Assembly: GCA_947474995.1 (NCBI GenBank)
Contig: CANJNJ010000008.1
Location: 1 to 58,569, forward strand
DNA: 58,569 nucleotides
Origin: Opitutaceae bacterium
GTDB lineage: Bacteria; Verrucomicrobiota; Verrucomicrobiia; Opitutales; Opitutaceae
Direction of reading: 5' to 3'
The notes beneath the pieces are model-generated. The model searched no databases and had not been told where the DNA came from. It worked only from the letters and a program-made list of their open reading frames with translations. Every line of letters starts with the position of its first letter. Position 1 is the stretch's first letter. Both the position numbers and the translations under genes were made by a program. Below, piece after piece: positions 37,704 through 57,691 of the stretch.

Positions 37704-37713
37704 ACGGTTGTTT

Positions 37714-37774
37714 GTAGTTCCGCCTTTAGGCGGAAGGTTTCCAGAGCCCGGATTCCGCCTAAAGGCGGGACTAC
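37714..37774. repeat. 61-base paired-hairpin repeat (REP/BIME-like), copy 3
   Basis: GTAGTTCCGCCTTTAGGCGG at one end and CCGCCTAAAGGCGGGACTAC at the other. It is the most perfect copy, with GTAG at both ends. It fills the gap between two convergent genes and probably ends both transcripts. Confidence 0.9.
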
Positions 37775-37784
37775 GAACCCGGCG

Positions 37785-38987
37785 CTACTCGGCCAGCAGC
37801 TCTTCCGTCAGCCGCCAGCAATAGCGCTGCATCCGCGGCAGGTGGAACGGGCCTTTCCACGTGTTGCCCTTGAGCCGGGTGGAGATGCGCCCGTCGCGGT
37901 GGGCGTAGCCGAACCATTCGCCGTGTTCGGGATCGGCAAACACGCGATGTGACCAGTCGTGGACGAGCGTGTGCCACTCGGCGTATTTGTCGTCACGCGT
38001 GAGCTGCCACGCGAGGAGCGTCGCGATCTCGGCCTCGTTGTGCGGCCACCAGAATTTCATCTCCGCCCAATATTCCTGCACGGGCAGGCCCTTGAGATCG
38101 ACGAAGTACAACAGGCCACCGTGTTCGCGGTCCCAGCCGCGCGCCCACATGCAGTCGAGGATGCCGAGGCCCAGCTTGAGCAGTCGCGGGTCGCGCGCCC
38201 GGTGCTTCGCCTCGTGCAGGACAAACCAGGCGCACTCGATCGCATGGCCGGGGTTCAGCGTGCGGCCGTCAAAGTGATCAATGACCTCGCCCTTCGGTCC
38301 CACCATTTCCATCAGCGCCCCGAGGTCCGGTTTGTAGAAATCGCGCTCGATGGCCGCGATGGAGCGATCGATCCACTGGGTGCACGTCGCCCCCTTGGCG
38401 GAAAGGTCGCCGAGCAGAGCGCGCACTTCCTGAGCCGTAGCGATGGCGATCATGTGCGGCGCCACACCCTGGGCAGGCCGCGTCTCCGGATCCGTTTTCG
38501 GCGGCATCACGCCCGGCGTAAAGGAGTGATGGAGGTAAGTCTCGAAATATTGCTGCGCCTCCTGGGCCGCGCGCGCGTCGCCCGTCGCCTTCGCGTAGGC
38601 CGCACTGCCGATGGCCGCGAAACACTCGCTGTAAACATACCGCCGCATCCGCAACGGGCGGCCCTCGCGCGTCACCGTGAAATAGAGTTTCCCGCCGGGA
38701 CCGCGACAATGGCTGCGGATGAAATCGAGGCAGTGCCGCGAAGCGTCGAGCCACTCGGGACGTTTTTCGACGGTGTTGTAGAGCGTGGCAAAGGTCCACG
38801 CCGCGCGACCCTGCAGCCAGACCGCCTTGTCCGTGTCGACGACGGTGCCGTCGTGGGCCAGCCCGGTGAGCAATCCGCCATGCTCATGATCGAGGCCGTG
38901 GCGCAGCCAAAAAGGAATGCAGCTCTTGAGCAGCCCGTCGCGATAGACGTCGCGGAACTGGGTGAGTTTTTGATCGGATAGGCTCAT
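37785..38987 (-). CDS. AGE-family epimerase/isomerase (N-acylglucosamine 2-epimerase type)
   Basis: A 400-residue (alpha/alpha)6-barrel enzyme starting MSLSDQKLTQFRDVYRDGLL; the 64 codons upstream are rejected. Family marks: FWLRHGLDHEHGGLLTGLA, DKAVWLQGRAAWTFA, MRRYVYSECFAAIGSAAYAK, the His region TLNPGHAIECAWFVL, and WWPHNEAEIATLLAW. Members epimerise N-acylglucosamine/N-acylmannosamine, cellobiose or mannose. It lies last in the long minus-strand run, 40 bases after the MFS gene. Confidence 0.92.
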   Translation of the reverse strand: MSLSDQKLTQFRDVYRDGLLKSCIPFWLRHGLDHEHGGLLTGLAHDGTVVDTDKAVWLQGRAAWTFATLYNTVEKRPEWLDASRHCLDFIRSHCRGPGGKLYFTVTREGRPLRMRRYVYSECFAAIGSAAYAKATGDARAAQEAQQYFETYLHHSFTPGVMPPKTDPETRPAQGVAPHMIAIATAQEVRALLGDLSAKGATCTQWIDRSIAAIERDFYKPDLGALMEMVGPKGEVIDHFDGRTLNPGHAIECAWFVLHEAKHRARDPRLLKLGLGILDCMWARGWDREHGGLLYFVDLKGLPVQEYWAEMKFWWPHNEAEIATLLAWQLTRDDKYAEWHTLVHDWSHRVFADPEHGEWFGYAHRDGRISTRLKGNTWKGPFHLPRMQRYCWRLTEELLAE

Positions 38988-39027
38988 CGAAGGAACGGAC
39001 CAAGCGGACCGGCCAAACCAAGCGGGG

Positions 39028-40290
39028 TCAAGTGGGCGGTACGGAACCAGGCCGCGGGCGGATAAAGAAAAGCAGGAGTGCGCAGAGCAGCAGACTGCCC
39101 GCGGCAAATTGGAAAAGGCGCGGGAGCGGGATCCCCCCGTCACGCAACGCCCCGCCCGCATAGATCGACAGCCCGCCAATTCCGGCTGAACAGAGATTTA
39201 AGACGCCGTAACCCGTGGCCCGGTACCGCGCGTCCGAGATCAGACACAGAATTGGCATCATGTTCGCGTCGGTGAAGGCGCGCGTCAGGCCCGTGAGAAT
39301 CAGTCCGAAAATCGCCAGCCAGAAAATATCCGTGCCCGCCACCATCACGAGCGCGGGTGCCGCAATGAGGAGCCCCAACGCCGGAACGTAGATCCGGCCG
39401 CGCGGATTGGTCCGGCTCCAGGCGTCGGCCCAGAAGCCACCAAGCAACACGCCCACCAGCGATGATGCCTGATAATAGCCCGTCGCCGACATCCCTGCCA
39501 CGCCCTGGCCGAGATGAAATTTCTCCGTCAAATACGTCGGCATCCAGCCAATCACAGTCCACAAGACGCCGAATATCCCCCAATAAAAGAACGCGAGGAT
39601 AAACGGACCTGAGCCAAAGAGGCTGCGCATGGCGGCACCAAAGCCCCCCACCGGCAAGGTCGCCTCCGGGGCATCGGCCGCACGCTCGGACCGGGGAGCG
39701 TCGCGCAGAAAAAGCATCAGAACGATGGCATAGCCGATGCCGATCAAACCAAAGAGACTGAAAGCGTAACTCCACGTATGCCGCTCGGCGACCAGTCCGC
39801 CCAGGCCGCCCAAACTGGCGCCCGTCATCATCCCGGTCATGTGCACCCCCGTCGCGCGCGAGCGCGTTGCTCCGCGATGGTAGTCCATGATGAGGGCGAG
39901 GCCGGCCGGCACATAACACGCCTCGCTAATGCCCATGAGCGCCCGGGTGATCAGCAAACCTTCAAACGTCGTCGCCCGGGATGTGAGCCAGGTCATCAAC
40001 GACCAAATCAAAAGGCTGCCAATGATCACGCGGGTGCGACTCAACCGATCCGCCACAAATCCGGCAAACGGACTGCACAGGGCGTACACCCAGAGAAAAA
40101 CCGAGGTCAGCAGCCCGAACTGTGCATCGGTCATCGGAATCGCCGCCATCACCGAACCCCGCATCGTGGTCAGCATGATCCGGTCGATGAGATTCAGGCA
40201 GGCCACCACCCAAAGCAGCCCGACGACCAGCCATGCCCGGCCCATGCGTTCAGGCGCAACCGGAGCGGAAATGCCATGCGGGTTCGTCAT
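39028..40290 (-). CDS. MFS transporter, probably for an organic or sugar acid
   Basis: A 420-residue protein with 12 predicted membrane helices. The loop 2-3 motif is GFVADRLSRTRVIIG (MFS motif A). FYWGIFGVLWTVIGWMPTYL and GVAGMSATGYYQASSLVGVLLGG are typical of the anion:cation symporter type that carries hexuronates, sialate and related acids. The start codon overlaps the stop of the propeller gene upstream (ATGA), so they are coupled. It is the likely importer of the product made outside the cytoplasm by this cluster. Confidence 0.88.
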   Translation of the reverse strand: MTNPHGISAPVAPERMGRAWLVVGLLWVVACLNLIDRIMLTTMRGSVMAAIPMTDAQFGLLTSVFLWVYALCSPFAGFVADRLSRTRVIIGSLLIWSLMTWLTSRATTFEGLLITRALMGISEACYVPAGLALIMDYHRGATRSRATGVHMTGMMTGASLGGLGGLVAERHTWSYAFSLFGLIGIGYAIVLMLFLRDAPRSERAADAPEATLPVGGFGAAMRSLFGSGPFILAFFYWGIFGVLWTVIGWMPTYLTEKFHLGQGVAGMSATGYYQASSLVGVLLGGFWADAWSRTNPRGRIYVPALGLLIAAPALVMVAGTDIFWLAIFGLILTGLTRAFTDANMMPILCLISDARYRATGYGVLNLCSAGIGGLSIYAGGALRDGGIPLPRLFQFAAGSLLLCALLLFFIRPRPGSVPPT

Positions 40291-41390
40291 GGTGCCGTCG
40301 TCCGGACCTTGGGCAACCAGGAGTACTCAAGGCGTCGCACCCGCAACGGCCCGCTCAAACGCGCCATCTCGTCGTCCCCTACGTTGTAGGCCAGCAGGAT
40401 CGCGTCAGGCGTACATTGGAGCGCGATGTAGTGATACCAAATGCTGTTATCGCCTTCGATCAACTTGCGGAGCGGCCAGGTCTGGCCGTCGTCCGACGAA
40501 ATCGCCGCGACCAAGGGTGCGCGGCGGCCTTTGACGAAGGGAAATTTGCCGGAGTGATCGTTGAACACCGCCAGCAGGTCGCGCGAATTCGGCAGCCGCT
40601 TGATGCTCGCCGGCGACAAGGGGGAAACCAGCGTCGAAGGGGACGGCGCGCTCCACGTTTTTCCGTTATCCGCCGAGCGCAATTGGTACTGCGAGCCCAT
40701 ATCGGTGCGTGCCCATGAAAGCAGTCCTGCACCCGCCGTCTCCACCACGCCGGACTCCTGCAGCCCGGATTTGCCCTCGGCGACACCCCAGCGCGACAGC
40801 GATTCCTGCCAGGTGGCGCCTTCGTCGTCGGAGTAATACCAGACCGCGGCCCCCCGCGTGCCGGCCATGCGATGGGAATTCATCGGCAGGAGGATTCGTC
40901 CACTGCTCGTTTGGATGACACGATCGTTATTCAAAATAAAATATCCCGGTGAATCGATCACCAACCGCGGCTTCGACCAAACGGCCCCGTCGTCGGTGGA
41001 AAATGAGACATAGGGACGGCAATCCTCGGTGCTCTTCGTGAAGAGGTAGAACATCGCGAGCTTGCCGCTCGCCAACGTCAGCAGGGAGACGCTCATCACA
41101 TTCAGGCCCTGGCCATCGACCCCCTGGATGATTTCGCGCGGTGCGCTCCACGCGCGGCCATCGTCATCTGACTGGATGCCCACAACCCGCGCCGCACTGT
41201 GATCCCGGTTCCCACCGTAGAACTGGGTGTAATAGAAAAGAATCCGACCGCTTTTCAGCCGGGCAAAACCTCCTTCCGAATTCCGGGGATTGCCGGGCGT
41301 GGGACGAAGTTCGAGCACGACCTGATTTTCCGTCTGGGCGGATAATGCCCCGAAGAGGAACAGTCCGAGCCCGAGCGCGATAAACTTCAT
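40287..41390 (-). CDS. Exported sialidase-like Asp-box protein
   Basis: A 367-residue protein with a signal peptide (MKFIALGLGLFLFGALSA). Asp-box turns: SDDDGRAWSAPRE, STDDGAVWSKPRL, SDDEGATWQESL, SADNGKTWSAPSP, SSDDGQTWPLRK, consistent with a six-bladed propeller. RNSEGGFARLKSGRILFYYTQFY at the start resembles the opening of exo-sialidase-like proteins. The substrate is not proven. It is coupled to the MFS gene downstream and starts 52 bases after the next propeller gene. Confidence 0.88.
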   Translation of the reverse strand: MKFIALGLGLFLFGALSAQTENQVVLELRPTPGNPRNSEGGFARLKSGRILFYYTQFYGGNRDHSAARVVGIQSDDDGRAWSAPREIIQGVDGQGLNVMSVSLLTLASGKLAMFYLFTKSTEDCRPYVSFSTDDGAVWSKPRLVIDSPGYFILNNDRVIQTSSGRILLPMNSHRMAGTRGAAVWYYSDDEGATWQESLSRWGVAEGKSGLQESGVVETAGAGLLSWARTDMGSQYQLRSADNGKTWSAPSPSTLVSPLSPASIKRLPNSRDLLAVFNDHSGKFPFVKGRRAPLVAAISSDDGQTWPLRKLIEGDNSIWYHYIALQCTPDAILLAYNVGDDEMARLSGPLRVRRLEYSWLPKVRTTAP

Positions 41391-41442
41391 GGCGAGATTT
41401 GCGAAATCAAAGGCAGCTGGAAATTTCGCCGGCCCGGCGCCC

Positions 41443-42615
41443 TCACGGGCCCGCAAATTTCGGAATGGCCTCCGGATCGAAACGTACCCAATGAATCGCC
41501 GTCTGCTTCCCGTGCGTGCCCCAAAAGGCCAGCAGGACGTGACCGTTGCTCAGCGTGGCAAGTGACGGGAACCCGAAGCGCAGCGTGTTGAGCTCCTCGG
41601 AGGTCGAGACTTTTCCCGCCATGCCCGACTCTGCGCCGCCCCAGAGCAGGCCACGGCGTTCCGTGCGCCACCCCGAAGCGTCGACGGTGGCGAGTTCAAC
41701 CCAAAGCCCCGGACGATCATGGCGGCGATACGCGGCCATAATTTTGCCCGACTCGAGCTCGATGACCTTGCAGGTCTGGGCGAGAAATCCCGTCGGCGTC
41801 GGCGGGCCAAACGTCTTGCCGCCGTCGCGACTCACCACGAACACGGAAGGCTTGGTCTCGCGGCTCTTGGGGTCGTAGACCCACGCCGTCGCCAGCAAGC
41901 TCCCGTCCCGGCGCACCGTCACGGACTGCTCCCAATGAATGTAGCCGGTCTTGCGACCGTCGAACGAGGGAACGAAGCGCGGCCAGGTCACGCCTCCATC
42001 GGTGCTGACGAGGAGCCCGGAGACTTCGCCATTCGGCGATTCGCCGTTCCAACCGCGCCACGTCGCCACCGGTGCGGCCCAGCTGCCATCGGGCAATTGC
42101 ACGATCGCGTGGCATAGTTCCCACGTCGGGCCAACCAACGGCGGCTCGATCCAACGCGGCGCGGACCACTTCCGGCCGCTATCCAGGCTCTCGATCCAGA
42201 AAAGCTTCATCGGCACCTGGCCGAGCGTCTCGCGATTGGAGCGATGCGTTTCGTAGCCCTGCCGATTCTCCCATTTGCCAAAGCCGAGCAGCCGCTGACC
42301 GGCCAGCCGGCGCGTGCGAATCGTGTGCGTCGTTGGCGGACCGTCTGGTTTGACCACCAGCGGGCCTTCGTCCTGCCAAGTCGTCCCCCCGTCGACCGTC
42401 CGGACTCCCCGTGTATGATAATCCAAAGTCTCGGTTGAAGTCCCCAAATCAAAGGAGACGAACCATTCGCGCTCTGAGAGCACCGTCAGGCTCGGATGGT
42501 ACGCATTGCGCGTGTCCGGTGGACTCGCGGCGAAGGCGACTCCCACCGCCTCGGCTCGCACGGCTTCAGCGCAGGGAGCAGCGGGAGTCGGGGTGCCTGG
42601 TGAACTCGGTTGCAT
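41443..42615 (-). CDS. Sialidase-like Asp-box protein without a visible signal peptide
   Basis: A 390-residue protein whose first usable start is the ATG at 42615. It opens MQPSSPGTPTPAAPCAEAVR, which is not a signal peptide, whereas neighbouring propellers have one. The same frame is open upstream as far as 42729 except for one TGA at 42619-42621, so an N-terminal part may be missing. Asp-box turns: TVDGGTTWQDEGP, LDSGRKWSAPR, STDGGVTWPRF, SRDGGKTFGPP. It ends GKQTAIHWVRFDPEAIPKFAG. It could be a cytoplasmic or misannotated-start member of the family. Confidence 0.82.
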   Translation of the reverse strand: MQPSSPGTPTPAAPCAEAVRAEAVGVAFAASPPDTRNAYHPSLTVLSEREWFVSFDLGTSTETLDYHTRGVRTVDGGTTWQDEGPLVVKPDGPPTTHTIRTRRLAGQRLLGFGKWENRQGYETHRSNRETLGQVPMKLFWIESLDSGRKWSAPRWIEPPLVGPTWELCHAIVQLPDGSWAAPVATWRGWNGESPNGEVSGLLVSTDGGVTWPRFVPSFDGRKTGYIHWEQSVTVRRDGSLLATAWVYDPKSRETKPSVFVVSRDGGKTFGPPTPTGFLAQTCKVIELESGKIMAAYRRHDRPGLWVELATVDASGWRTERRGLLWGGAESGMAGKVSTSEELNTLRFGFPSLATLSNGHVLLAFWGTHGKQTAIHWVRFDPEAIPKFAGP

Positions 42616-42618
42616 CGA

Positions 42619-42729
42619 TCAACGATCCGTCCCGGTCGGCATCAGCGCCAACCGAAAACGCGTGGTCTCCTGCGGATTCCAAACCCGGAGGACGCGGCTC
42701 GGGCGGCGTCTGAAGGCAGCGCTGCTCAC
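42619..42729 (-). CDS. 36-codon frame coupled to the upstream propeller gene (uncertain)
   Basis: It begins GTG at 42729, overlapping the TGA of the preceding gene (GTGA), and reads RVLRVWNPQETTRFRLALMP before a TGA. The next ATG of the propeller gene lies one codon further in the same frame. It has protein-like composition but no signal or known match. It may be the lost N-terminus of the propeller gene or chance. Confidence 0.3.
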   Translation of the reverse strand: MSSAAFRRRPSRVLRVWNPQETTRFRLALMPTGTDR

Positions 42730-44255
42730 TGGGCGGCGTTCGGGTCCTGGGAATAATCGTGGGTGCCGAGGCTGAACAGGCGCGTGCTCGTCAGCTCCAG
42801 CAGGACCCTGATCGGGCGGTCGGCGGGGGGCAACGCCCCGCTCTTCCAGCGCATGAGACCTGAGATGCTATCGGTTGTCAGCGGCACACTGTCCGCCAGG
42901 CCAAGGCCGGCAATGGCCCGACCGTCCGCTTCGACCAACCCCGCGCGAACGGCGCCGCGCCGGGCGTCGGCGTTCACCACGAGGCGGGCCGACGCGAGCC
43001 GCAGCGGTTTGGTCTCCAGCCGCCCACCTTCGGGTCCCGCGTCCAGCGACACAAAGCCATCGCGACGCCAATCCGCCCGCGCGATGGAGATGCGCTTGGG
43101 CGGCATGGGGCCGCCGTGATTGGTGGTCAACACCGTGTAGTAAACCCACGTTTCCTTTCCGGCATTCACCGGCGACGACGCGAGGCCGAGGATCGCCCCG
43201 CCATTGAAGGTTCCAGGCGCGCCGTGCGGAATCACGTTGCTCCGCGGCCAGGAGCGCTGCCAGTGAGCGCCATCGAGGCTGCTGGCGATCTCGACATCGA
43301 TCGGCCCGGCAATCGGGCTCTGGCCCTTGCCCACGGCCGACCGCGGCAACTGATACTCGACCCGCAGGACAGTCGGCAACCCGATGAAGCCGCCGGCGTG
43401 GGCAAAGACCGACATGTTGTAGAATTCGGTGCGCTCCCCGGGGCGCGTAACCCACAAGTCGTCGATTTCATCCGGGCTCAGCACAAGGTGCGGTTCCGAC
43501 CACGTGACGAAATCGCGACTGCGCGAGAGCCACACCACGCGGCGATCGAAGCCGCGGACGACCTGCGGCTTCTTGAGATACACGAGAAATTCCCCGTTCA
43601 CGGGGTCCTGCGCCATCGTGATGGTGTCGGAATAGGGAAAAATCGGCGCGCCACTCGCCGGCCGATAGGCCCACGTCAGCCCATCAGGCGACGTGGCGGA
43701 ATAGTAATTCCGGCCCGAGGCGCCCACCATCTTGTAGCGGTGCGCCGGATTCTTTTCGAAGGCGTCGACGATGACCGTCGGGCTATCGAGATCGAAGATG
43801 ATATTGTTCTGTTTCGAACCCGCGAATTCATGGAGTCCAAGATTGGGCCGATCCCACTTTTTCCCATCGGGCGATGTCGCGTAAAGTTGAAGCGTCGCCC
43901 CACCCTCTTTGAATCCCGCGACATGGACCTTCGCCGTATCGGCGAGCACCTCGCCCCGGCTGGGCAGGCCCACATACCACATTTCGAAGAATTTTTTCTC
44001 CGGGTTGAAGCGTACCGTGCCGAACACATAGACCCGCTCGCCTTCCCACGGGAGTTCCGGCTGCAACACCGGTTGGGCCAGAGACTGGCCGGGATGAATC
44101 CGCCGCACGAGGTCGCGACGCGTCTCGATGCCGCCATCGTCAACAAAAAGCAGGGGCAATTCGCCAAGCCGAATGGCCCGGCCATCCCCCGCCGCGGCGC
44201 CGGCCGGGCGGCAGAGAATCAGGAAAGCGAACAGCAAACCGAGCCGGATTTTCAT
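42726..44255 (-). CDS. Exported GH32/GH43-like beta-propeller protein
   Basis: A 509-residue protein with a signal peptide (MKIRLGLLFAFLILCRPAGA). The frame upstream of 44255 belongs to shadow text of the repeat-protein gene and is rejected. Repeating SPDG/W motifs (TSPDGKKWDRPNLGL, TSPDGLTWAYRP, SRSRDFVTWSEPH, SSLDGAHWQRSW) and the FEMWYVG and EFYNMSV strands match the planctomycete and verrucomicrobial propeller family often annotated as GH32- or GH43-like. It probably binds or cuts a glycan. Its stop codon overlaps a GTG of a short frame. Confidence 0.85.
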   Translation of the reverse strand: MKIRLGLLFAFLILCRPAGAAAGDGRAIRLGELPLLFVDDGGIETRRDLVRRIHPGQSLAQPVLQPELPWEGERVYVFGTVRFNPEKKFFEMWYVGLPSRGEVLADTAKVHVAGFKEGGATLQLYATSPDGKKWDRPNLGLHEFAGSKQNNIIFDLDSPTVIVDAFEKNPAHRYKMVGASGRNYYSATSPDGLTWAYRPASGAPIFPYSDTITMAQDPVNGEFLVYLKKPQVVRGFDRRVVWLSRSRDFVTWSEPHLVLSPDEIDDLWVTRPGERTEFYNMSVFAHAGGFIGLPTVLRVEYQLPRSAVGKGQSPIAGPIDVEIASSLDGAHWQRSWPRSNVIPHGAPGTFNGGAILGLASSPVNAGKETWVYYTVLTTNHGGPMPPKRISIARADWRRDGFVSLDAGPEGGRLETKPLRLASARLVVNADARRGAVRAGLVEADGRAIAGLGLADSVPLTTDSISGLMRWKSGALPPADRPIRVLLELTSTRLFSLGTHDYSQDPNAAQ

Positions 44256-44316
44256 GCGAAGGAGCGATGGGGCCCGTGATCCGTTCTTCAACCAGACCAA
44301 GCCGACAAATAGGCTG

Positions 44317-45273
44317 CTAGGGTTGAGCCGCCCCGCGCCGCGGGCCGAGCACGTGCAGGATGACCAGGGCCGAGCCAATGCGAACATCGCCGTGTGCGGC
44401 CTGCAGGAGCGGCGCGAGTTGCGCCAGATCTCCCGGCCCGAGGGCCGAGGCCAAGGCGTGACTGGCCTCAAAGCGCATATGGGGCTCCGCCGTCTCCGAC
44501 AGCAAAACCTCTTGCAACCGGCCGACCCAGGCGCGTTCGTGCGTCGCAGAAACCCGCAGGGCCAGCGCGGCACTGAGCAAATAAACTTCCACGTCCGTAC
44601 CGGGTCGCTCCGCAAGGGCCGCGCGCGCCAGCGCCGACCGGACACCGGCGTCGTCGGGCTTGAGCCAGCGCAGGACATAGCCCGCGCGCCGCCGGGCCAC
44701 CGGGTGTTGAGACACAAGCTTGCCGACGATTCGCTGTAACGCATCAGGTTCCCCGGCCAGGGCCAGCGCCCACCATGGCAACAGGGTCTCCTGCTCCGGC
44801 TCGTTCGCCACCATTTGGCGCGCCAACGCGACCGCTCCCGCCGATGGCCTAAACCCGAGCTTGTCCAAGCTCTCGATCGCCGTGGCCACATCCGGGCCCG
44901 CTTCGAGCAGGCGGGCTGCAATCCGGGCCTGCCAGGCGGCGCGCTCGGCGGCAGACGACGCCGACGCCGCGAGGACACGCCAGGTGCCAATCTCAAATTC
45001 CTTCGGTGCGGTCCGGCGCAACTCGGCTTCAAACTCAAGCCGCGCCGGTTCGGTTTCCCCCAGGCCAATGAGGGCTTCGGCCGCGTGCACCTTTATCCAG
45101 CCCGTTTCTTCCAGCAAGGCGCGCTGGAGGGTCTGGGAGGCAGCCGACTTCAATACTTCAGATTGCTTCATTTCAACGGAGCCAGGTGGAACCAAATTGT
45201 CGCCCGCGCGGGACGCGGTCGGTTTCATCACAAATAAAAGTGGCAACGCGACAGCGGAACGAAACAAGGGCAT
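44317..45273 (-). CDS. Exported HEAT-repeat-like protein
   Basis: A 318-residue protein starting MPLFRSAVALPLLFVMKPTASR with a short signal-like hydrophobic stretch. The rest is Ala/Leu-rich helical repeats (KVHAAEALIGLGETEPARLEF, ARRRAGYVLRWLKPDDAGV, RFEASHALASALGPGDLAQ) typical of HEAT/PBS-lyase-like repeats. Such exported repeat proteins are common next to planctomycete and verrucomicrobial sugar clusters and probably act as scaffolds. There is no catalytic motif. It ends 61 bases before the next gene. Confidence 0.75.
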   Translation of the reverse strand: MPLFRSAVALPLLFVMKPTASRAGDNLVPPGSVEMKQSEVLKSAASQTLQRALLEETGWIKVHAAEALIGLGETEPARLEFEAELRRTAPKEFEIGTWRVLAASASSAAERAAWQARIAARLLEAGPDVATAIESLDKLGFRPSAGAVALARQMVANEPEQETLLPWWALALAGEPDALQRIVGKLVSQHPVARRRAGYVLRWLKPDDAGVRSALARAALAERPGTDVEVYLLSAALALRVSATHERAWVGRLQEVLLSETAEPHMRFEASHALASALGPGDLAQLAPLLQAAHGDVRIGSALVILHVLGPRRGAAQP

Positions 45274-45358
45274 GAAGGGAACCGGATTGACGCCGCGCTC
45301 ATTGCCACCCGGCGTCAAATCCAAATCGTTTCCGCAAAGGACCACCGCCAAACCCAAC

Positions 45359-45418
45359 GGGAGCGCGGCCGCCCCGGCCGCCCGAGTCTGCCGTGCGACC
45401 AAGGACGGTCGCGCTCCC
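45359..45418. terminator. 60-base hairpin region after the TonB receptor gene
   Basis: GGGAGCGCGGCC (45359-45370) pairs with GGTCGCGCTCCC (45407-45418) with one mismatch, and an inner GGCCGCCCCGGCC is also palindromic. It lies in the 172-base gap between the receptor and the HEAT-like gene. It may end or weaken transcription between them. Confidence 0.5.
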
Positions 45419-45445
45419 AACTCGAAGCGACGTGACCGCCACAAC

Positions 45446-47824
45446 TCAGTACTTGTACGTCAGGGTCAAACGGAACGTCCGATCCATCGCGCGATAGATC
45501 AGGGAGTCCTGAATCGAGTAAACGATCTTGTCGCTGTTCGCGAGGTTCAGGATGTTGAGTTGGACGTTCCAGCGGTCCCGTCCGTAGCCGATCAGTCCGT
45601 CAAAGATGTCGCTCGAGGGCATGAAGAACGTGTTGCCGCTGTCCCCGGGAGCGACCCCACGGTGCCGCCAGTCGGCGCCGACATACCAGCCCTTGCCCGG
45701 GCCGCCTTGGAACGTGTATTTTCCAATCAACGAATAGCTCGCGTCGCGCGGCACCTGGTTGAACTGCAGGCCGGTCTCGTTCTTCGAATCCACCTTGCTG
45801 TAGGCCAGGATCAGATCCAGTCCGGGCATCGGTCCCCACGCGATGTCCATCTCATAACCCTTGGTCTTTTGCGTTCCCGCGGGCACCGAGATGAAACCGC
45901 CACCCAAGGACGGCGGATTGATCACCTGCACAAGCACGTTGGTGAGTTCCATGTCGAAGACCGAGGCCGTGGCGACGAGCTTGCCGCCGTACATATCGAG
46001 CTTGATGCCGCCTTCCTTGATTTTGCCCTCTTGGTTGGGGAACTTGGTATTCGTCGCGGGATTCAGCGTGTTGATCGGAATATAGGTCTGGCCCACCTGG
46101 CCAAAGATGCTCAGGCCGGGAACGGGTTTGCCGACCACGCCGTATTTCGACGTCCACTGCTGGTTCGAGATGAAGGCCGTCGTCGCCGGATTCACCACGA
46201 ACCGGCGATTGGCGATACTGGCGGGGGAGTCGAAACCGTACGTGGTGGTGTCGATCTTGTCGTCGCGCGCGCCGGCCGTGAAGATCAACTTGTTGTCGAG
46301 GAGCGCAATGTTGTCCTGGAAGCCAAACGCGTAGGCGTGGTTCTTGTTGTCGCCGTTGAAGGAATTGAAACTTGGCGTCGTCGCCTCGAGCGCCTTGCGG
46401 TCAAATCCGGAAAAATCCGGCCGGAGGGCCGAGAACGAATTGGCGACTGCCGTCGTGTTTTTCGGATTGGGAATCGCCCAGAAGAAGAATGCGCGTTCGG
46501 TCTGGGTGTTGGTGAGCTGGCCGTTGACGACCACCGTGTGCTTGACCGACCCCGTCATGAATTTGCCGACGATATCCAGGTAGGCGCCGGTGTGGATCTT
46601 GTAGCCGGAAAATTCCCGGAGCGTGAGGTTCGTGCGGAAATCCGCCACGCGGGGATCCGCCTGGGAAATGAAGCTGGACGTGCCATTGACGAGCTGGCCC
46701 GCCGCATTCGTGTACTGCACGATGGCCCCGGTACTGGTGACCGGCGTGGGCAGGGTCAGTGCATAACTCGGGCCCTGGTCGCCATACGCCTGGTTATTGC
46801 GCGCCACGAGCCGCATCGTCCATTTGCTGTCATCCTGGGCGGCGATGGTGTATTCGACGCCGGCCTCGTAGGTACGCACGTTCCCCGGGGAATTGTCGTC
46901 CGGCGGCGCGTTGTTGATTTCCTTCGAGACCGGGAACTTCGGATTGTTGAGGACCGGGGCGAACGTGGGATTGAGCGGGTCCTTCCAACCCGTGGCAAAG
47001 ACTGTGGCGTTGGTGATGGCCACGTCATGCTTCATGTAGCTGAACCGGGCCCAGGCGCGCCCGCCGGATTTCGAGTCACCGAGCAGGTGCGTCCAGGAGA
47101 AGGTGGCGTTGGTGGAGTCGTTCCGGCCGGCCCCCCAGTACCGCCGGCCGTTTTGTTGCGCCACCACCGCGCGATAGGCGTCGCGCTTGCCCACGGGCCG
47201 GGTGGTATCGATCATGGCGCGGACATATTTGTCGTAGGACTGCGCCTGAAACTGGACGACCGTCTGCGGGGTAAAGCGCGGCCACTTGCTGATCTTATTG
47301 ATCACGCCACCCATGCTGGTCGTGCCGTAGAGCGCGCCGGCCGGACCCTTGATGACCTCCACCCTTTCATAGCTGGAGGCATCGTCGACCGCGCCGACGG
47401 CGGTTGCGGTCAGGTCGGGCAAACCGTCCCGAATGCCGAAGCCGGCCGTGGAACTGATCGCAAAGCCCCGCAGGGTGAAACTCTCAAACCGTGGGGAAAG
47501 GGGCGAGGTGGCCTGAATGCCGGAAACGAACGACAGGACCTCGAGGGCGCTGACCGGCGCCTTGTCCGCGAAGAATTGTTCGCTCAGGCCAATCACCGAG
47601 AGCGGCACATCGCTATTCGGCAGGGCGACCCGCGACGCGCCCATCGTTTCGGACATGCCATAGCCGGTGTCCCGCTGATTTTTCACGAGGAAAGGAGACA
47701 GCACAACGGTCTCGTCGGCCATCGCGGCCGAAGTCGACGACGACGGCTGCGGCGCGGTTTGCGCTCGAGCCGGCAAAACCAAGACGGTGCTCAAAAGCAC
47801 ACTGAGGCTAAGGATTCGTTTCAT
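45446..47824 (-). CDS. TonB-dependent outer-membrane receptor
   Basis: A 792-residue protein starting MKRILSLSVLLSTVLVLP with a signal peptide to ARAQ; the 15 codons upstream are rejected. DETVVLSPFLVKNQRDTGY looks like the TonB-box region usual in Verrucomicrobia. The plug follows (GLSEQFFADKAPVSALEVLS, SYERVEVIKGPAGALYGTTS with the GPAGALYG signature), then the 22-strand barrel, ending in an aromatic residue (TFRLTLTYKY). By style it is siderophore-receptor-like, but in this setting it may import an oligosaccharide. It lies downstream of the cytochrome gene with a 245-base gap that may hold its own promoter. Confidence 0.92.
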   Translation of the reverse strand: MKRILSLSVLLSTVLVLPARAQTAPQPSSSTSAAMADETVVLSPFLVKNQRDTGYGMSETMGASRVALPNSDVPLSVIGLSEQFFADKAPVSALEVLSFVSGIQATSPLSPRFESFTLRGFAISSTAGFGIRDGLPDLTATAVGAVDDASSYERVEVIKGPAGALYGTTSMGGVINKISKWPRFTPQTVVQFQAQSYDKYVRAMIDTTRPVGKRDAYRAVVAQQNGRRYWGAGRNDSTNATFSWTHLLGDSKSGGRAWARFSYMKHDVAITNATVFATGWKDPLNPTFAPVLNNPKFPVSKEINNAPPDDNSPGNVRTYEAGVEYTIAAQDDSKWTMRLVARNNQAYGDQGPSYALTLPTPVTSTGAIVQYTNAAGQLVNGTSSFISQADPRVADFRTNLTLREFSGYKIHTGAYLDIVGKFMTGSVKHTVVVNGQLTNTQTERAFFFWAIPNPKNTTAVANSFSALRPDFSGFDRKALEATTPSFNSFNGDNKNHAYAFGFQDNIALLDNKLIFTAGARDDKIDTTTYGFDSPASIANRRFVVNPATTAFISNQQWTSKYGVVGKPVPGLSIFGQVGQTYIPINTLNPATNTKFPNQEGKIKEGGIKLDMYGGKLVATASVFDMELTNVLVQVINPPSLGGGFISVPAGTQKTKGYEMDIAWGPMPGLDLILAYSKVDSKNETGLQFNQVPRDASYSLIGKYTFQGGPGKGWYVGADWRHRGVAPGDSGNTFFMPSSDIFDGLIGYGRDRWNVQLNILNLANSDKIVYSIQDSLIYRAMDRTFRLTLTYKY

Positions 47825-48069
47825 TTTAGGATTTGGCCGGGGGGATTGCTTGCAGTGTTCAATGCGCAAGGCGCACCAACTCTCGGCTAGCTACAAATCG
47901 CCCCTCCCCTCATTGCCAAGCCATTCGTCCTGGTTCCCGTGAGAGGCCAGGGCGGACGACCCCGCCCGCCGACCCTCCGGGCCGCCCCGGGAAGGCCACG
48001 TCAGGGCGTTGCCCGGTCGCGCCGCCCTTTAGTCCGGCCCATTCGCCGTCGACGGGATGGCCGGCGGCG

Positions 48070-48444
48070 TCACTTCAGCGTTTGCAGGTACGCGATGAGT
48101 TCCTGGCGCTCCTTCGGCTCGGGCAGTCCCGGAAAGGGCATCGCGTTGCCGGGAATATAGGTCTGCGGATTTTCGAGATACGCATCCAGGGTGGCGTCAC
48201 TCCACACGATTTTGGAATTCTTCATCGCCCGGCTGTAGCGAAACCCCGGCACCGTGCCCGCCTGGCGACCGATCAGGCCACGCAGGTCCGGCCCCGGCGT
48301 AACCGCGCCTTGCCCCGGAGTATGGCAGGCCGCGCACGTTGCAAATAATTCCCGCCCCTTATCCGGGTTGCCTGCCGCCGCCAACCCCGAGGCGCAAAGG
48401 GTCGCAAGCGTCAAAATTCCCAACGAACAAAAGCGGCGGCTCAT
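48070..48444 (-). CDS. Small exported c-type cytochrome
   Basis: A 124-residue protein starting MSRRFCSLGILTLATLCA with a signal peptide to GLAAA. Heme motif CAACH (in RELFATCAACHTPGQG) and a distal Met in YIPGNAMPFPGLP mark it as a class I monoheme cytochrome. The gene starts 14 bases after the GMC oxidoreductase gene ends, so it is the probable electron acceptor of that enzyme. The codons upstream of 48444 overlap the GMC gene and are not used. Confidence 0.93.
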   Translation of the reverse strand: MSRRFCSLGILTLATLCASGLAAAGNPDKGRELFATCAACHTPGQGAVTPGPDLRGLIGRQAGTVPGFRYSRAMKNSKIVWSDATLDAYLENPQTYIPGNAMPFPGLPEPKERQELIAYLQTLK

Positions 48445-48458
48445 GCCAGTAAGTGGGT

Positions 48459-50219
48459 TCACAGCCGTCCCGGCTTGCGGTTGTATCGAACGAGATCCTC
48501 CCCCAGCCGCAACGAGAGAGCCGCGACCAGTTCGGAGGGATTGAAACCCGCGTTTTGGGCAAAGGTCGACGCCCCCGCCACAAACAGATTGTCCGCGTCC
48601 CAATGCTGCCCGCGCGGCGAGACCACGCTGGTCGCCGAGTCGGAGCCCATGATCGTGCCCCCGGTGATATGGGTGCCGTGATAAAGCCGCGCATCGTACG
48701 GACGGCCACGGGGAACCGCCGGGCCGACCACCGTCGCTCCCATCGCCCGGGCAATCTTTTCCGCCTGCGCCGTGCAGTAGGCCGACATGCGCCGTTCGTT
48801 TTCCCGGTAATCAAAGGTGATGCGCAGGAGTGGCTGCCCGTAGGCGTCCGTGTAGTCCGGATCCAGATCGAGGAAATTCTCGCGGTGCGGATAGCAACTA
48901 CCCTGCACGCCGATCGAAAATGAATGCGCGTACCAATCGGCGTTGGCCTGTTTCCACGCCGTGCCCCAGCGCGGGGTTCCCGGCGGCACGCTGCGGGCGG
49001 AAATCGGCGTGCCGGAGCCCATGCCCACGCCCGTCGTGCCCCCGCCGAAGAAGCCGAGCCCGGCATGATCAAAATTGTCGTCGTTGAATTCGTCGATCAG
49101 GTGACCCGCCGCCCCGGCGGAGAAGAAGGGATTGATCCAGCGGTCGCGGAAAAAAACCCCGACCCCCGACGTGGTCTGGAAGCAGAGATTCTTGCCGACG
49201 GCGCCCTGCCCGGTCGCGGGATCATAGGCGCGTCCGATCCGGCTGCCGAGCAGCAGGCGGGTCGTGGTCATGGTAAACGCGGCCAGCACCACGACGTCCG
49301 CGGGTTGGTAGTACTCTTCTCCCGTCATAAGGTCGAGATACCGCACGCCGCGCGCGTGGCGGGAGGCCGCGTCGTAATCGACCGCCAGCACGTGGGCGTG
49401 CTGACGCAGCTCAAAGTGCGGCTGCCTTTCCAGCCAGGGATACAACAACGCCGCCGGGGTGCCCTTGGCGTTGGCCTCGCAAACATACCGGCCGCAATGT
49501 CCACAAAACTGGCAGGCCCCGAGCCTCATGCCATCGGGATTCACGTAGGCGCCCGGGGAATTGGCCGCGGGCATCGGGAACGGGCGATACCCAAATTCAC
49601 GCTCGGCCGTTTCCTTGAACATCAATCCCGCCTCGGTCGCCTCGAGCGGTTTCTGCGGGTACTCGTTCTGCCGCGGATCCTCGAACGGGTTGCCGCCCGG
49701 CTGTACTTGTCCGCGCAGATTGCCCGCCTTGCCCGCGATCCCGAAGAGTTTCTCGAACCGATCGTAGTACGGTTCGAGCTCGTCGTAACTCACGCCCCAG
49801 TCCTGCACCGGCATGTCGGCCGGGATCGCGGCCTTGCCGTAGCGCCGCACCAGGCGCGAATAGAGCTCGGAGTTGTAGCCGGCCCAGCGGTGCGACTCGC
49901 CGTTCCAATGATTGCCCGCGCCTCCCACGCCCGTGCCGGGCAGAAACGACGCGAGCCGCCGCATGGGCCGCGACGCGTCGGCGCGGGAATGCCGCAACGT
50001 GTAGGTTTCGGCCGACGCATTTTGCATCAGGCCCGCGCGCACGGACCAGCGCAGCTCGTCGCGCTGACTCGGAATCTTGGCCTCGGCGCCGTCGCGCACG
50101 TCCCCGCCGCGCTCCAGCACCAGTGTGTCGATGCCCGCGGGGGCGAGCTGCCGGGAAATCAAGCCGGCCGCCAGGCCGCCGCCGACAATGACCACCGTGC
50201 GTCGAGGAAGGGTCTTCAT
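48459..50219 (-). CDS. GMC-family FAD oxidoreductase (large subunit type)
   Basis: A 586-residue enzyme. The FAD-binding TVVIVGGGLAAGLISRQL is at the N-terminus, PGTGVGGAGNHWNGES is the GMC substrate/FAD loop, and the C-terminal domain has GTHITGGTIMGSDSATSVV and NLFVAGASTFAQNAGFNPSE. A Cys-rich CQFCGHCGRYVCEANAKGTP lies at ~230-250 (4-Cys cluster, a likely Fe-S or structural site known in some dehydrogenases of this class). It has no signal peptide of its own and probably travels with subunit 3 through Tat, as in gluconate 2-dehydrogenase and sorbitol dehydrogenase. The likely reaction is oxidation of a sugar or sugar alcohol in the periplasm, with electrons passed to the adjacent cytochrome. 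Confidence 0.92.
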   Translation of the reverse strand: MKTLPRRTVVIVGGGLAAGLISRQLAPAGIDTLVLERGGDVRDGAEAKIPSQRDELRWSVRAGLMQNASAETYTLRHSRADASRPMRRLASFLPGTGVGGAGNHWNGESHRWAGYNSELYSRLVRRYGKAAIPADMPVQDWGVSYDELEPYYDRFEKLFGIAGKAGNLRGQVQPGGNPFEDPRQNEYPQKPLEATEAGLMFKETAEREFGYRPFPMPAANSPGAYVNPDGMRLGACQFCGHCGRYVCEANAKGTPAALLYPWLERQPHFELRQHAHVLAVDYDAASRHARGVRYLDLMTGEEYYQPADVVVLAAFTMTTTRLLLGSRIGRAYDPATGQGAVGKNLCFQTTSGVGVFFRDRWINPFFSAGAAGHLIDEFNDDNFDHAGLGFFGGGTTGVGMGSGTPISARSVPPGTPRWGTAWKQANADWYAHSFSIGVQGSCYPHRENFLDLDPDYTDAYGQPLLRITFDYRENERRMSAYCTAQAEKIARAMGATVVGPAVPRGRPYDARLYHGTHITGGTIMGSDSATSVVSPRGQHWDADNLFVAGASTFAQNAGFNPSELVAALSLRLGEDLVRYNRKPGRL

Positions 50220-50237
50220 TTCGCGCGCAAGTGCGGG

Positions 50238-50984
50238 TTAGCCGAAGTCCTCGATGGACTTGGGATCGCTGGCGCCGGGGAAAGGCTTGCCCCGGTACTT
50301 TACGACATTGAGGCCGTTGACGGCCGGCAGCCCGGGATACCCCACCATTTTCCAAAACACCTTGTCCCGATTTCCGCCATAGATCGGATCGGCGTAACAC
50401 GCCTGGACGAAAAGCGGGTAGACCAATTCGTTGAACCACTCCGCGAGCGGCACCCGCGGATCACCCACCTTGCCATCGGCGATCGCGACGAGGAAGGCAT
50501 TGGCTTCGACCGCGTTCAATTCCTCAAATCGCCGGCCGTGCTGTCGCCGGACGGCCTGATTTGCCGCCGCAATTCCCGCCCGGAAAAATTCCTCCGGCGT
50601 CAGCGGCAATTGATAGCCGTGCTCCGGGAGACCCGGCCGCCACGGCCCGCACCGATACAATCGGTCCCCTTGGCCAAAGGCACCCGCGAGCTGGCGATCC
50701 ATGAAGATGGCGAGGCCGCAGTCCGTCCCGCGCGGCGTCAATGCGTCCGCCGGGCACATCACGTCCACCAGCGCCTCGACAAACGCCGCCTCGTTGGGAC
50801 TCAGCAATTGATAGCCGGGTGGCGGCGCCTCCGCCGGCGTGGCCGCGGCCGCCCCCGCGGCGACGCTCGCGGCGGTCGGAACCGTGGCGAGCCCTGCGAG
50901 CACGGCTGCCTGGCGCAGAAATTCGCGGCGGCCGGATTCCGGGCCGCGCCCCGCGGGCGGCGATTCTGGGGCTCCGTCTTTCAC
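50238..50984 (-). CDS. Gluconate 2-dehydrogenase subunit 3 family protein (Tat signal)
   Basis: A 248-residue protein with a twin-arginine signal (GRREFLRQAAVLAGLATVP) and start GTG at 50984. The mature part YQLLSPNEAAFVEALVDVMCPAD, DRQLAGAFG and AVNGLNVVKYRGKPFPGA matches the small subunit (gamma) that escorts the FAD subunit. It lies 18 bases before the GMC gene. The GTG overlaps the TGA of an upstream short frame (GTGA). It probably carries the GMC subunit across the membrane folded. Confidence 0.92.
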   Translation of the reverse strand: MKDGAPESPPAGRGPESGRREFLRQAAVLAGLATVPTAASVAAGAAAATPAEAPPPGYQLLSPNEAAFVEALVDVMCPADALTPRGTDCGLAIFMDRQLAGAFGQGDRLYRCGPWRPGLPEHGYQLPLTPEEFFRAGIAAANQAVRRQHGRRFEELNAVEANAFLVAIADGKVGDPRVPLAEWFNELVYPLFVQACYADPIYGGNRDKVFWKMVGYPGLPAVNGLNVVKYRGKPFPGASDPKSIEDFG

Positions 50985-51121
50985 GCGGACACTCCGACCG
51001 GCATCTCCGCGGCGCCGGCACCGTCGGCCGCCGGCGTCACGCGGCGCGTGGTGACGATGCTCCGAACCGTTCGGAGAATGCGGGAACCGCGTTCCCGGCC
51101 AATGACGAGTGCAGTTTCCAT
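50981..51121 (-). CDS. Short basic reading frame coupled to the dehydrogenase operon (uncertain)
   Basis: A 46-codon frame starting METALVIGRERGSRILRTV and ending MPVGVSA, with its TGA overlapping the GTG of the subunit 3 gene. It is Arg-rich with no membrane segment. It could be a leader peptide that sets translation of the operon, or chance; no match is recognised. A clear ribosome-binding site is not seen. Confidence 0.3.
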   Translation of the reverse strand: METALVIGRERGSRILRTVRSIVTTRRVTPAADGAGAAEMPVGVSA

Positions 51122-51436: not shown

Positions 51437-52267
51437 ATGAACCCCGAACCTGTGAGCCCACCCTCGCTCTTGCGCGTCAACCGGCTCCTGGCCCATATGC
51501 GCGCCGGGGAACTGGAACACCTGTATAGCCTCGGGAATTTCGCGTCGCCGCGCTACGTCGACTATATCTGCGCGAGCGGACATTTTCAGTCGCTGTGGTT
51601 CGACCTCGAGCACTTTGACATTCCCACCCACGAGCTCGCCGTGCTCAACCTGGTCGCGCGGGCCTACCCGGTGACAACAATCGCCCGTTTCAAGGCGGCC
51701 GACTATCAAACCGTCATGCGCATCATGGAGACCGGCGTGGGCGGCATCATGTGCGCCATGGTCGAGAGCGCGGCCGAGGCCGAGCAGATTGTGCGATGGG
51801 CGAAGTTCCGGAATCCCACGCCCGGCCCGGGTGAAGTCACCGGACTGCGCGGCTGGAACGGCGGCGGCCCCGATGCCCGCTACGGTATGGTCCCGGCGAC
51901 GGACTACGTGCGGCATCAAAACACCGAAATCGCGATCCTCTGCCAGATTGAAACGCCCGAGGCGCTGGCCCGCCTCAATGAGATTGCCGCGGTGCCCGGA
52001 GTCGACGGCTTGTTCTTCGGTCCCGGCGACTACGCCCACCGGATCGGTCACCTCGGAAAAATCACCCACCCGGAGGTACTTCAGGCGATGCAGCTCGTGG
52101 CGGCGGCCTGCAAGCGCAACGGGAAGTTTCTCGGCACCATCGGCATCGGCCGCGAACATTACCTGAAAGTAAAAGAGATCGGCGCGCGGTTGATTTGCCC
52201 CGGCGGCGACCTGCGCGTGATGAACCACGGCCTGCGTGAATTGGTAAAGTCTTTCAGCGACGTGTAA
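51437..52267 (+). CDS. HpcH/HpaI-family aldolase
   Basis: A 276-residue class II retro-aldolase. The catalytic His in WFDLEHFDIP (D-x-E-H), metal-binding Glu in ILCQIETPEALAR and Asp in GLFFGPGDYAHRIG match the family. It would cleave a 2-keto-3-deoxy or 4-hydroxy-2-keto acid to pyruvate or a related keto acid plus an aldehyde. The ATG at 51437 is preferred to a TTG nine codons upstream. A second aldolase of the same family lies at 53804. It starts 452 bases from the divergent oxidoreductase operon. Confidence 0.92.
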   Translation: MNPEPVSPPSLLRVNRLLAHMRAGELEHLYSLGNFASPRYVDYICASGHFQSLWFDLEHFDIPTHELAVLNLVARAYPVTTIARFKAADYQTVMRIMETGVGGIMCAMVESAAEAEQIVRWAKFRNPTPGPGEVTGLRGWNGGGPDARYGMVPATDYVRHQNTEIAILCQIETPEALARLNEIAAVPGVDGLFFGPGDYAHRIGHLGKITHPEVLQAMQLVAAACKRNGKFLGTIGIGREHYLKVKEIGARLICPGGDLRVMNHGLRELVKSFSDV

Positions 52268-52376: not shown

Positions 52377-53465
52377 TCAGCGCCCCGGGGGCGCCGCCAG
52401 CGAGCGACCCGGCACGAACTTTGGTTCGATCCGTTGATCGAGATGGGGAATCGGTTCGCGGCGGATGAAGGCGAGCACGTGGGCGAACAATCGTTTGGCG
52501 TAGGTCTTGGGACTCAACACGTAGCCGGCGGGCGTCGGCTTCAGGTACGAGAGGAAGGTATCGTGGTCGCGCGAAACGAGCGAAACCTGCTCGCCCACCC
52601 GCAAGCCCCGATCGGCCAGAAACGTGACAGCCGTGAGGTAAATGTCCGGCTTGGCGATCAACAGCGCCGTCGGCGGACGGGAGGAATCAAATAGCCGCGC
52701 GAGCACGCGCCACGCGCCCTCGACCGTGCCATCGTGGCGGGCCACCGTCGATTCCACGTCACTCCGGTCCGACCGCTGCACGGCATCGATGAAACCCGCT
52801 TCACTTTCCAAGTCTCCGCCACGCTGGGATTCGTTGACGAAGAACGCGAGCCGCCGGTGCCCCAAGCGCAGCATGGCGCCGACCGCGTGGCGGCACACCG
52901 CAAAATAATCGAGATCCACGTTGGGGAGGGGCAACTCCTTCGGGCAGGAACCCGCGATGATGCACGGTACGCGATGATCGAAGAACCACCGCTGCATGAT
53001 CGCGTTCGAGTGCGTCAGCACCCAGCAGGCCTGGGGATTTTGCCGCACGAGCCGGGCCAGTGCCTGGTTCGAACCGCGGCTGAAGAACCGGCTGCTGGAA
53101 AACGCGGCCAGCTTGATCCCGCGCTCGAAGAGCAAGGTGCGCAGTTCGTCGATCCACAGGGTGGTGTGCGACGGCAACTGATCGAGGGAATCGGGCGTCA
53201 GGAGCCCGATCGAAAGCTCCTGGCGCTCCACGGGGCGCACGGCGCCGACGATCCGGTGGCCCACGCGCCGGCCGGTCTTGATCAATCCCTCCCGCTGGAG
53301 CGGGGCGATGGCCTTGCGCACCGTCTTCCGACTCACTTGCAGCGTCTCGGCCAGCGCGCGCTCACTCGGCAGTGCAGCGATCCAGGTACCAGCCTGAATT
53401 TCCTTCGCAATCCGCGCGGCCACCTGGGCGGCGAGCGAGTGGTAGTTATGAGGTTCGGCGGGCAT
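52377..53465 (-). CDS. GntR-type HTH/LacI-type sensor hybrid regulator
   Basis: A 362-residue protein. Residues ~8-70 are a GntR winged helix (AARIAKEIQAGTWIAALPSERALAETLQVSRKTVRKAI). From about residue 82 it is a LacI/periplasmic-binding-like sensor (LSIGLLTPDSLDQL, CIIAGSCPKELPLPNVDLDYF, MLRLGHRRLAFFVNESQRGGD). The DNA-binding part is GntR-type though the sensor is LacI-like, a fusion usual for XylR-type regulators of Bacteroidetes and Verrucomicrobia. It probably responds to the sugar or its breakdown product and controls the flanking aldolase genes. Confidence 0.9.
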   Translation of the reverse strand: MPAEPHNYHSLAAQVAARIAKEIQAGTWIAALPSERALAETLQVSRKTVRKAIAPLQREGLIKTGRRVGHRIVGAVRPVERQELSIGLLTPDSLDQLPSHTTLWIDELRTLLFERGIKLAAFSSSRFFSRGSNQALARLVRQNPQACWVLTHSNAIMQRWFFDHRVPCIIAGSCPKELPLPNVDLDYFAVCRHAVGAMLRLGHRRLAFFVNESQRGGDLESEAGFIDAVQRSDRSDVESTVARHDGTVEGAWRVLARLFDSSRPPTALLIAKPDIYLTAVTFLADRGLRVGEQVSLVSRDHDTFLSYLKPTPAGYVLSPKTYAKRLFAHVLAFIRREPIPHLDQRIEPKFVPGRSLAAPPGR

Positions 53466-57687: not shown

Positions 57688-57691
57688 GTTG

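Follow-up and report, generated by a model that had tools for sequence, protein, structure and literature searches.

The enzymes closest to the one considered here are membrane-bound fructose dehydrogenase and the FAD-dependent glucose dehydrogenases, in which a GMC-type flavoprotein, with a cysteine-bound iron–sulfur cluster, is paired with a small subunit of twin-arginine (Tat) type and a cytochrome subunit. At the level of gene neighborhood, the nearest described systems are Sus-type polysaccharide utilization loci, which group a TonB receptor, secreted BNR-type proteins, a regulator and a transporter. We analyzed a stretch of 58,569 nucleotides (nt) from an Opitutaceae bacterium (the window), which is contig CANJNJ010000008.1, here C8, of a 5.24-Mb draft genome in 261 contigs. 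Ten genes follow one another on its minus strand from 50984 to 37785. The first three encode a gluconate 2-dehydrogenase subunit 3-like protein (SUB3), an FAD catalytic subunit (GMC) and a cytochrome c (CYTC), together termed the trio; then come a TonB-dependent receptor (TBDT), a HEAT-like protein (HEAT), an unclassified protein (PROP), two BNR_2 proteins (BNRa and BNRb), an MFS transporter (MFS) and an N-acylglucosamine 2-epimerase-like protein (AGE). Coordinates, strands and Pfam matches bear out the number, direction and order of genes given in the original prediction.

That prediction had read the ten genes as a pathway that binds, trims, oxidizes, imports and epimerizes a sugar. Comparison with related genomes instead suggests a mosaic. 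The trio is associated with a sugar-acid operon or occurs alone, and C5, a different contig of this genome, carries further members of that operon. PROP, conversely, tends to associate with a GntR-type regulator (GntR), an HpcH/HpaI-type aldolase (HpcH1), a PF12831 oxidoreductase (FADox), receptors and BNR_2 proteins. Our preferred reading, to which we assign a probability of about 0.6, is that the trio is an aldose or sugar-acid dehydrogenase relocated into a mosaic locus, possibly with its pathway split.

The trio and its likely class

All three domains of a GMC/subunit 3/cytochrome c dehydrogenase are encoded in neighboring genes, which are set 18 and 14 nt apart. A regular-expression search places a Tat motif close to the SUB3 N-terminus, the GMC sequence begins at its FAD motif, with no separate signal visible by eye, and the N-terminus of CYTC looks signal-like, again by eye. 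GMC aligns end to end with fructose dehydrogenase (7w2j, 94 bits), shares about 19–23% identity with this enzyme and with the FAD-dependent glucose dehydrogenases 6a2u and 8grj, and resembles them in its Tat-type small subunit. A structural model built from 19 sequences (pLDDT 65, pTM 0.76), used as a fold check only, likewise gave fructose and FAD-dependent glucose dehydrogenases as its top fold matches. The active-site histidine is aligned (His517), whereas the adjoining asparagine of fructose dehydrogenase is a threonine in the window GMC and a serine or threonine in the relatives read. Four cysteines, invariant across the 19 sequences, occupy the same region as the cysteine-rich stretch of the reference, but their spacing, CxxCxxCxxxxC, differs from it, and CYTC has one CxxCH motif where the cytochrome subunits of the reference enzymes carry three hemes.

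The trio looks like a member of the same class, though not necessarily a fructose or glucose dehydrogenase, and its earlier description as a periplasmic enzyme resembling gluconate/sorbitol dehydrogenase fits with the Tat motif on SUB3, the relatives of GMC and the c-type cytochrome. In our model, the Tat-exported trio would act in the periplasm, oxidizing a sugar or a sugar acid, with electrons passing from FAD, perhaps by way of an iron–sulfur cluster, to cytochrome c and on towards the respiratory chain. The nearest named relatives of the GMC gene are from Verrucomicrobiota, several of them Opitutaceae; the second-best GMC of the same genome is 33% identical to that of the window. The trio family as a whole is 59–73% identical across Verrucomicrobiota, Rokuibacteriota and Pseudomonadota, and no characterized member was identified in this analysis. 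The Verrucomicrobiota operon that holds the trio allows a guess, open to testing, about the class of its substrate.

Operon partners of the trio, in other genomes and on C5

We compared 27 other GMC loci (59–73% identity), 25 of them from a collection of 84,980 species, where the pattern search used is limited to close relatives, plus two from genomes of the same family. Gene presence was called at 55 bits or more. Full 10-kb flanks were available in 15 of the 27 loci and not in the other 12, hence an absence is less than certain, particularly that of AGE, which lies 9.5 kb from GMC in the window. Loci left out of the count were L033 (24% identity), L068 and L069 (40%, with GMC ahead of SUB3), five repeats (L035, L064, L065, L066 and L067, matching L011, L012, L013, L015 and L016) and short loci from the same places (L034 and L036–L042). 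SUB3 was found in 25 of the 27 and CYTC in 24. TBDT was present in seven, MFS in eight (one at 27%), both of these together with the trio in six, HpcH1 in three (36–37%) and HEAT in one, while PROP, BNRa, BNRb, the further BNR protein BNRc, AGE, GntR and FADox were found in none. With four of its ten genes seen in none of the 27 other trio loci, a fifth there once, and the usual partners of the trio on C5, the specific set of the run is not supported as one pathway.

By title or kinship, the trio loci comprise 12 from Verrucomicrobiota, 14 from Pseudomonadota and one from Rokuibacteriota. An FMN-dependent dehydrogenase (FMN_dh) stands right after the trio in eight, all Verrucomicrobiota (L009, L010, L011, L012, L013, L031, L062 and L063). 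Seven of these also carry genes for a Gfo/Idh protein and a 2-hydroxyacid dehydrogenase (2HADH), and the contig of the eighth, L011, stops at this point; kelch is present in six of the eight and MR_MLE in five, several contigs ending early. The operon, known from sequence only, reads TBDT-SUB3-GMC-CYTC-FMN_dh-Gfo/Idh-2HADH-MFS-kelch-MR_MLE (for example in L009, L013, L062 and L063). The window resembles it in the trio (GMC 68–73% identical) and in its MFS, which is from the same broad family, but FMN_dh, Gfo/Idh, 2HADH, kelch and MR_MLE are all absent from the window, and the window TBDT shares only 24–31% identity over 220–739 residues with the operon receptors. The L008 contig ends straight after GMC, and the operon is not beside the trio in L015, L016 and L030; in the last, an FMN dehydrogenase (53%) lies 6 kb away from the trio, and we excluded it from the adjacent count.

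In the same genome, C5 carries, in operon order, a TBDT (18917–21064), a 101-codon FMN-dehydrogenase fragment, Gfo/Idh, MFS, kelch and MR_MLE (L142:9918–17393, G000:C5). The receptor is 56% identical to those of L009 and L010, and Gfo/Idh, kelch and MR_MLE are 79%, 59% and 73% identical to those of L009; the C5 MFS is 49% identical to that of the window. The 277-nt gap between TBDT and the FMN fragment gave chance-level matches only when searched for a trio remnant (best GMC E 0.009, antisense), and no 2HADH lies between the C5 Gfo/Idh and MFS, the rest of the genome not having been searched for that gene. Directly after the truncated FMN dehydrogenase stands a copy of an inverted repeat that also occurs in the window at 36398–36486, which may hint that this element was behind the C5 deletion.

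The trio and Gfo/Idh also occur together in other genomes. Among 200 genomes of the family, GMC is present in ten at E ≤ 1e-100, with eight at 64% identity or above, and all six genomes with Gfo/Idh at E ≤ 1e-120, own genome included, fall among these eight. Kinship ignored, Fisher's test gives p = 3e-10 with the eight GMC genomes and 3e-9 with the ten. In four of the five other genomes Gfo/Idh and the trio share a contig. A tree of the concatenated trio, with a root that we set among the other trios, makes the window sister to eight Verrucomicrobiota trios (L008–L013, L062 and L063; 98/99) and separates it from the other nine (100/100). None of the ten other genomes of the same genus that were listed has a GMC at 64% or above; two have a relative at 41–42%.

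It is likely that the trio is by descent part of a Verrucomicrobiota operon resembling an oxidative aldonate-type pathway, and that it now sits in the window while the remainder of the operon persists on C5 without the trio and 2HADH, its FMN dehydrogenase truncated. Relocation is what we infer, in preference to separate acquisition. The MR_MLE protein on C5 is nearest to arabinonate and galactonate dehydratases, at scores under the curated cut-offs. The simplest pathway would begin with oxidation of an aldose or sugar acid by the trio outside the inner membrane; an MFS would then import the product, MR_MLE dehydrate it and an aldolase of HpcH or DHDPS type cleave it. The trio most likely still feeds sugar-acid catabolism through the transporter and dehydratase of C5, perhaps together with the neighboring HpcH aldolase; as that aldolase gene is divergent beside the trio on C8, C8 and C5 may each hold part of the pathway.

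Several observations weigh against relocation and a split pathway. A longer FMN dehydrogenase, 58% identical to that of L009, is present on contig C15 of the same genome, and C5 and C8 could be neighbors in the cell, given a draft assembly of 261 contigs. The co-occurrence test treats related genomes as independent, genome G123 has its trio and Gfo/Idh on two contigs, at the contig ends, and a tree of GMC only, with distant outgroups, leaves the position of the window open. The 14 Pseudomonadota trios, the Rokuibacteriota trio, L015 and L016 show none of the operon partners searched for; with so many trios of this kind, the trio can stand alone. HpcH1 homologues occur in three trio loci and HEAT in one. 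The closest solved relatives of GMC, the fructose and glucose dehydrogenases, are only about 19–23% identical to it. Finally, the PROP piece may likewise be concerned with sugar acids, since L053, a PROP locus described below, also holds MR_MLE, DHDPS-family and 2-hydroxyacid dehydrogenase genes.

A further reading is that the trio could be a glycoside 3-dehydrogenase, with the Gfo/Idh and HpcH enzymes processing 3-keto sugars. GMC does match the pyranose oxidase model TIGR02462 (41.5 bits), and the C5 Gfo/Idh matches the glycoside and disaccharide 3-dehydrogenase models BT_2158 and BT_2159 (35.9 and 30.8 bits, respectively), but all these matches are weak and far under cut-off. Fructose and glucose dehydrogenases are the best PDB relatives of GMC, in fold as in sequence, the operon has a gene resembling those of sugar-acid dehydratases, and the genes scanned showed no 3-keto lyase of a known kind. 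We regard a 3-keto pathway as very improbable.

Separate associations of PROP, AGE and MFS

PROP and MFS belong to expanded families: PROP, for which there is no Pfam model, has matches at E ≤ 1e-20 in 53 of the 200 family genomes (own included), often several per genome, and MFS has matches at E ≤ 1e-80 in 63, with nine in its own genome. AGE matches at E ≤ 1e-40 occur in 51 genomes and are up to 85% identical, and BNRa matches at E ≤ 1e-30 in three, own included. From the first three sets we examined the best or chosen matches, namely 10 PROP, 19 AGE and 14 MFS loci, and the trio is in none of them.

The ten best PROP loci include four with HpcH1 (60–71%), four with GntR (35–46%) and four with FADox (63, 63, 55 and 26%). 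PROP has BNR_2 proteins nearby in L053, L054 and L057; a receptor with a Plug domain adjoins it in L054 and, by eye, in L056 and L057. L053 combines a TBDT (40%), PROP, a BNR_2 protein, HpcH1, GntR and FADox, with no trio. As receptor, PROP and BNR_2 recur in this way without the trio, and in L053 with sugar-acid genes, a link between propeller loci and sugar acids is plausible. We picture GntR, HpcH1, FADox, PROP and probably TBDT as a second piece of the locus, with its own history.

The assignments within the run differ in firmness. Of the HEAT-like protein and three propellers originally proposed, BNRa and BNRb have BNR_2 matches to rely on, whereas the HEAT_2 match is under its cut-off and PROP falls in no Pfam family. 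A ten-sequence PROP profile gave weak PDB matches (E 0.017–0.096) to mannobiose phosphorylase, fructofuranosidase and one uncharacterized chain, by which a propeller fold is suggested. A structure model from the single PROP sequence had a mean pLDDT of 32.5 and was discarded. The arginine motif of GH33 sialidases, FRIP/YRIP (sought as [FYW]R[IVL]P), is absent from BNRa, BNRb and BNRc, all three of which have Asp-box-like motifs. TBDT scores 148.4 bits against the TonB siderophore receptor model TIGR01783, under the cut-off of 223.5. Unlike Sus-type loci, which are recognized by a SusC/SusD pair, the window has no SusD match among the genes scanned, nor did these match any glycoside hydrolase family. 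We found no publication on this gene arrangement in the part of the open-licence literature that we could search.

These data also bear on whether the run is one co-regulated locus after all, in which a glycan enters through TBDT and is trimmed by the propellers, after which the trio oxidizes the freed sugar in the periplasm, MFS imports it and AGE epimerizes it. Intergenic distances from SUB3 to AGE are 18, 14, 245, 172, 61, 110, 52, −4 and 40 nt. The single strand, the short gaps within SUB3-GMC-CYTC and BNRb-MFS-AGE, where BNRb and MFS overlap, and the signal-like N-termini (by eye) of TBDT, HEAT, PROP and BNRb are consistent with such a locus, as are the six other trio loci with receptor and transporter, the content of L053 and the BNR_2 proteins beside PROP in L054 and L057. 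However, the complete set occurs in none of the loci examined, the 245- and 172-nt gaps divide the run, BNRa lacks a signal peptide as judged by eye, AGE enzymes work on N-acyl hexosamines, an oxidized sugar not being their usual substrate, and the gaps upstream of the trio and of TBDT have no palindrome in common. SUB3 to AGE may be more than one transcript, because the CYTC-TBDT and TBDT-HEAT gaps could house promoters; promoter and terminator scans had no entry within the CYTC-TBDT gap. We consider one co-regulated locus quite unlikely. The original interpretation is partly supported; its chain from binding to epimerization rests on adjacency in one genome. What survives of the proposed coupling between glycan uptake and sugar oxidation is the recurrence of receptor and transporter beside some trios and of sugar-acid genes in propeller loci of the L053 type; the specific set of genes was seen in none of the other loci examined.

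A bolder form of our preferred reading would have a conserved operon of aldonate type lose the trio to a locus for glycan uptake. One oxidative pathway would thereby extend over two loci, and periplasmic sugar oxidation would lie beside a GntR-regulated propeller locus that possibly handles sugar acids. We hold this to be unlikely on balance. If true, it would mean that a respiratory sugar dehydrogenase was rewired from free-sugar to glycan use and that what is left of the old operon can still be seen. More generally, the same enzyme families are reshuffled between such catabolic loci, and adjacency is therefore poor evidence that genes share a pathway.

Over its whole length, AGE aligns with an N-acylglucosamine 2-epimerase of known structure, 8bry (8bry residues 23–409 against 6–398; 492.7 bits), but scores 356.3 bits against the equivalog model NF052547, below the cut-off of 600. 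Its 19 loci contain MFS of the window family in three, GntR of the window kind in four, PROP in one (L084, 30%) and BNRb in one (L076, 26%). BNRb, MFS, AGE and perhaps BNRa could be a partial sialate or N-acetylmannosamine locus to which the trio is an unrelated neighbor. This would agree with the high identity of AGE across the family, with the match to 8bry, with L072 and L073, where AGE lies near MFS (47–48%) and, by eye, near DHDPS-like, GntR-like and receptor genes, and with L076, which holds two BNRb homologues (25–26%), MFS (51%), GntR (38%) and AGE (80%); DHDPS-like genes of the L072 type, at 45% and 42%, also occur elsewhere in the own genome. Yet the run showed no lyase, kinase or deacetylase, the GH33 motif is missing from the BNR proteins and BNRb matches sialidases in part only, 16 of the 19 AGE loci are without MFS of the window family, and the window MFS is closer (58–67%) to transporters in varied other gene settings, with the neighboring genes named by eye. 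We find a sialate locus somewhat doubtful, and prefer to see AGE, and an MFS drawn from a large family, as a third piece of the mosaic with its own history.

The nearest NCBIfam model of MFS is the D-galactonate transporter TIGR00893, at 108 bits against a cut-off of 395. The MFS proteins from six of the trio operons group together (100/100) to the exclusion of the window MFS, the placement of which in the tree is undecided. MFS was considered as a link between the trio and the window and dropped, being of a widespread family, with its nearest relatives elsewhere and outside the trio-operon clade.

Flanking genes and repeats

Start codons of CYTC, TBDT, HEAT, PROP, BNRb and AGE were picked by us, which shortened several mechanically called open reading frames. 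Scans of the window for Rfam RNAs and tRNAs were empty.

Table 1. Genes of the run and its flanks, with the matches and motifs that identify them
Feature	Position	Strand	Matches and motifs
SUB3, gluconate 2-dehydrogenase subunit 3-like	50238..50984	-	PF13618 86 bits, 3.6e-24; twin-arginine motif RREFLR
GMC, FAD catalytic subunit	48459..50219	-	PF05199 69 bits, PF00732 30 bits; Cys 236, 239, 242, 247; His517 in HITGGT
CYTC, monoheme cytochrome c	48070..48444	-	PF00034 43.5 bits, 8.4e-11 (longer mechanical open reading frame); one CxxCH
TBDT, TonB-dependent receptor	45446..47824	-	Plug 47.8 bits, 2.2e-12
HEAT-like protein, weak assignment	44317..45273	-	HEAT_2 17.2 bits, E 0.0063, cut-off 27.7
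PROP, unclassified, signal-like N-terminus	42726..44255	-	No Pfam match
BNRa, BNR_2 protein	41443..42615	-	BNR_2 43 bits; no signal peptide by eye
BNRb, BNR_2 protein of the sialidase superfamily, signal-like N-terminus	40287..41390	-	BNR_2 123.5 bits; five Asp-boxes
MFS transporter	39028..40290	-	160.9 bits
AGE, N-acylglucosamine 2-epimerase-like	37785..38987	-	PF07221 158 bits, 4e-46
Fourth BNR protein, downstream of AGE	36615-37703	opposite to run	
HpcH1, HpcH/HpaI-type aldolase, divergent from trio	51437..52267	+	PF03328 2e-23; TIGR02311 117 bits, cut-off 369
GntR-type regulator, periplasmic-binding-protein-like sensor domain	52377..53465	-	
HpcH2, second HpcH/HpaI-type aldolase	53804..54580	+	PF03328 6.4e-28
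FADox, PF12831 oxidoreductase	56056..57687	-	With HpcH1 and GntR also in L053, L057, L060 (26%)

HpcH1 and HpcH2 flank a single GntR regulator and have a 105-nt stretch in common at 70% identity. An amidohydrolase is also encoded upstream of the run.

REP/REPIN-like doublets lie at 37710–37778 and 57685–57759, with AGTTCCGCCTNNAGGCGG in inverted pairs. The genome holds 363 such half-sites (at most one mismatch), against none for the reversed control, and at least three exact sites lie on C8, which supports the assignment of this contig to the genome. In our search for a shared operator, palindromes in nine gaps gave 30 shared pairs against a shuffle mean of 6.8 (60 shuffles, none reaching 30); this repeat, present at 37.7 and 57.7 kb, accounts for 17 of the 30. 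Among these nine gaps, no palindrome was common to the one upstream of the trio and the CYTC-TBDT gap. The second inverted-repeat element, that at 36398–36486, has copies in its own genome in L142, L143, L091 and L005. Elsewhere in the window, a minus-strand pair at 20554–25173 sets a DUF1552 protein beside a DUF1587/1588/1592 protein that bears a cytochrome c domain of Planctomycete type.

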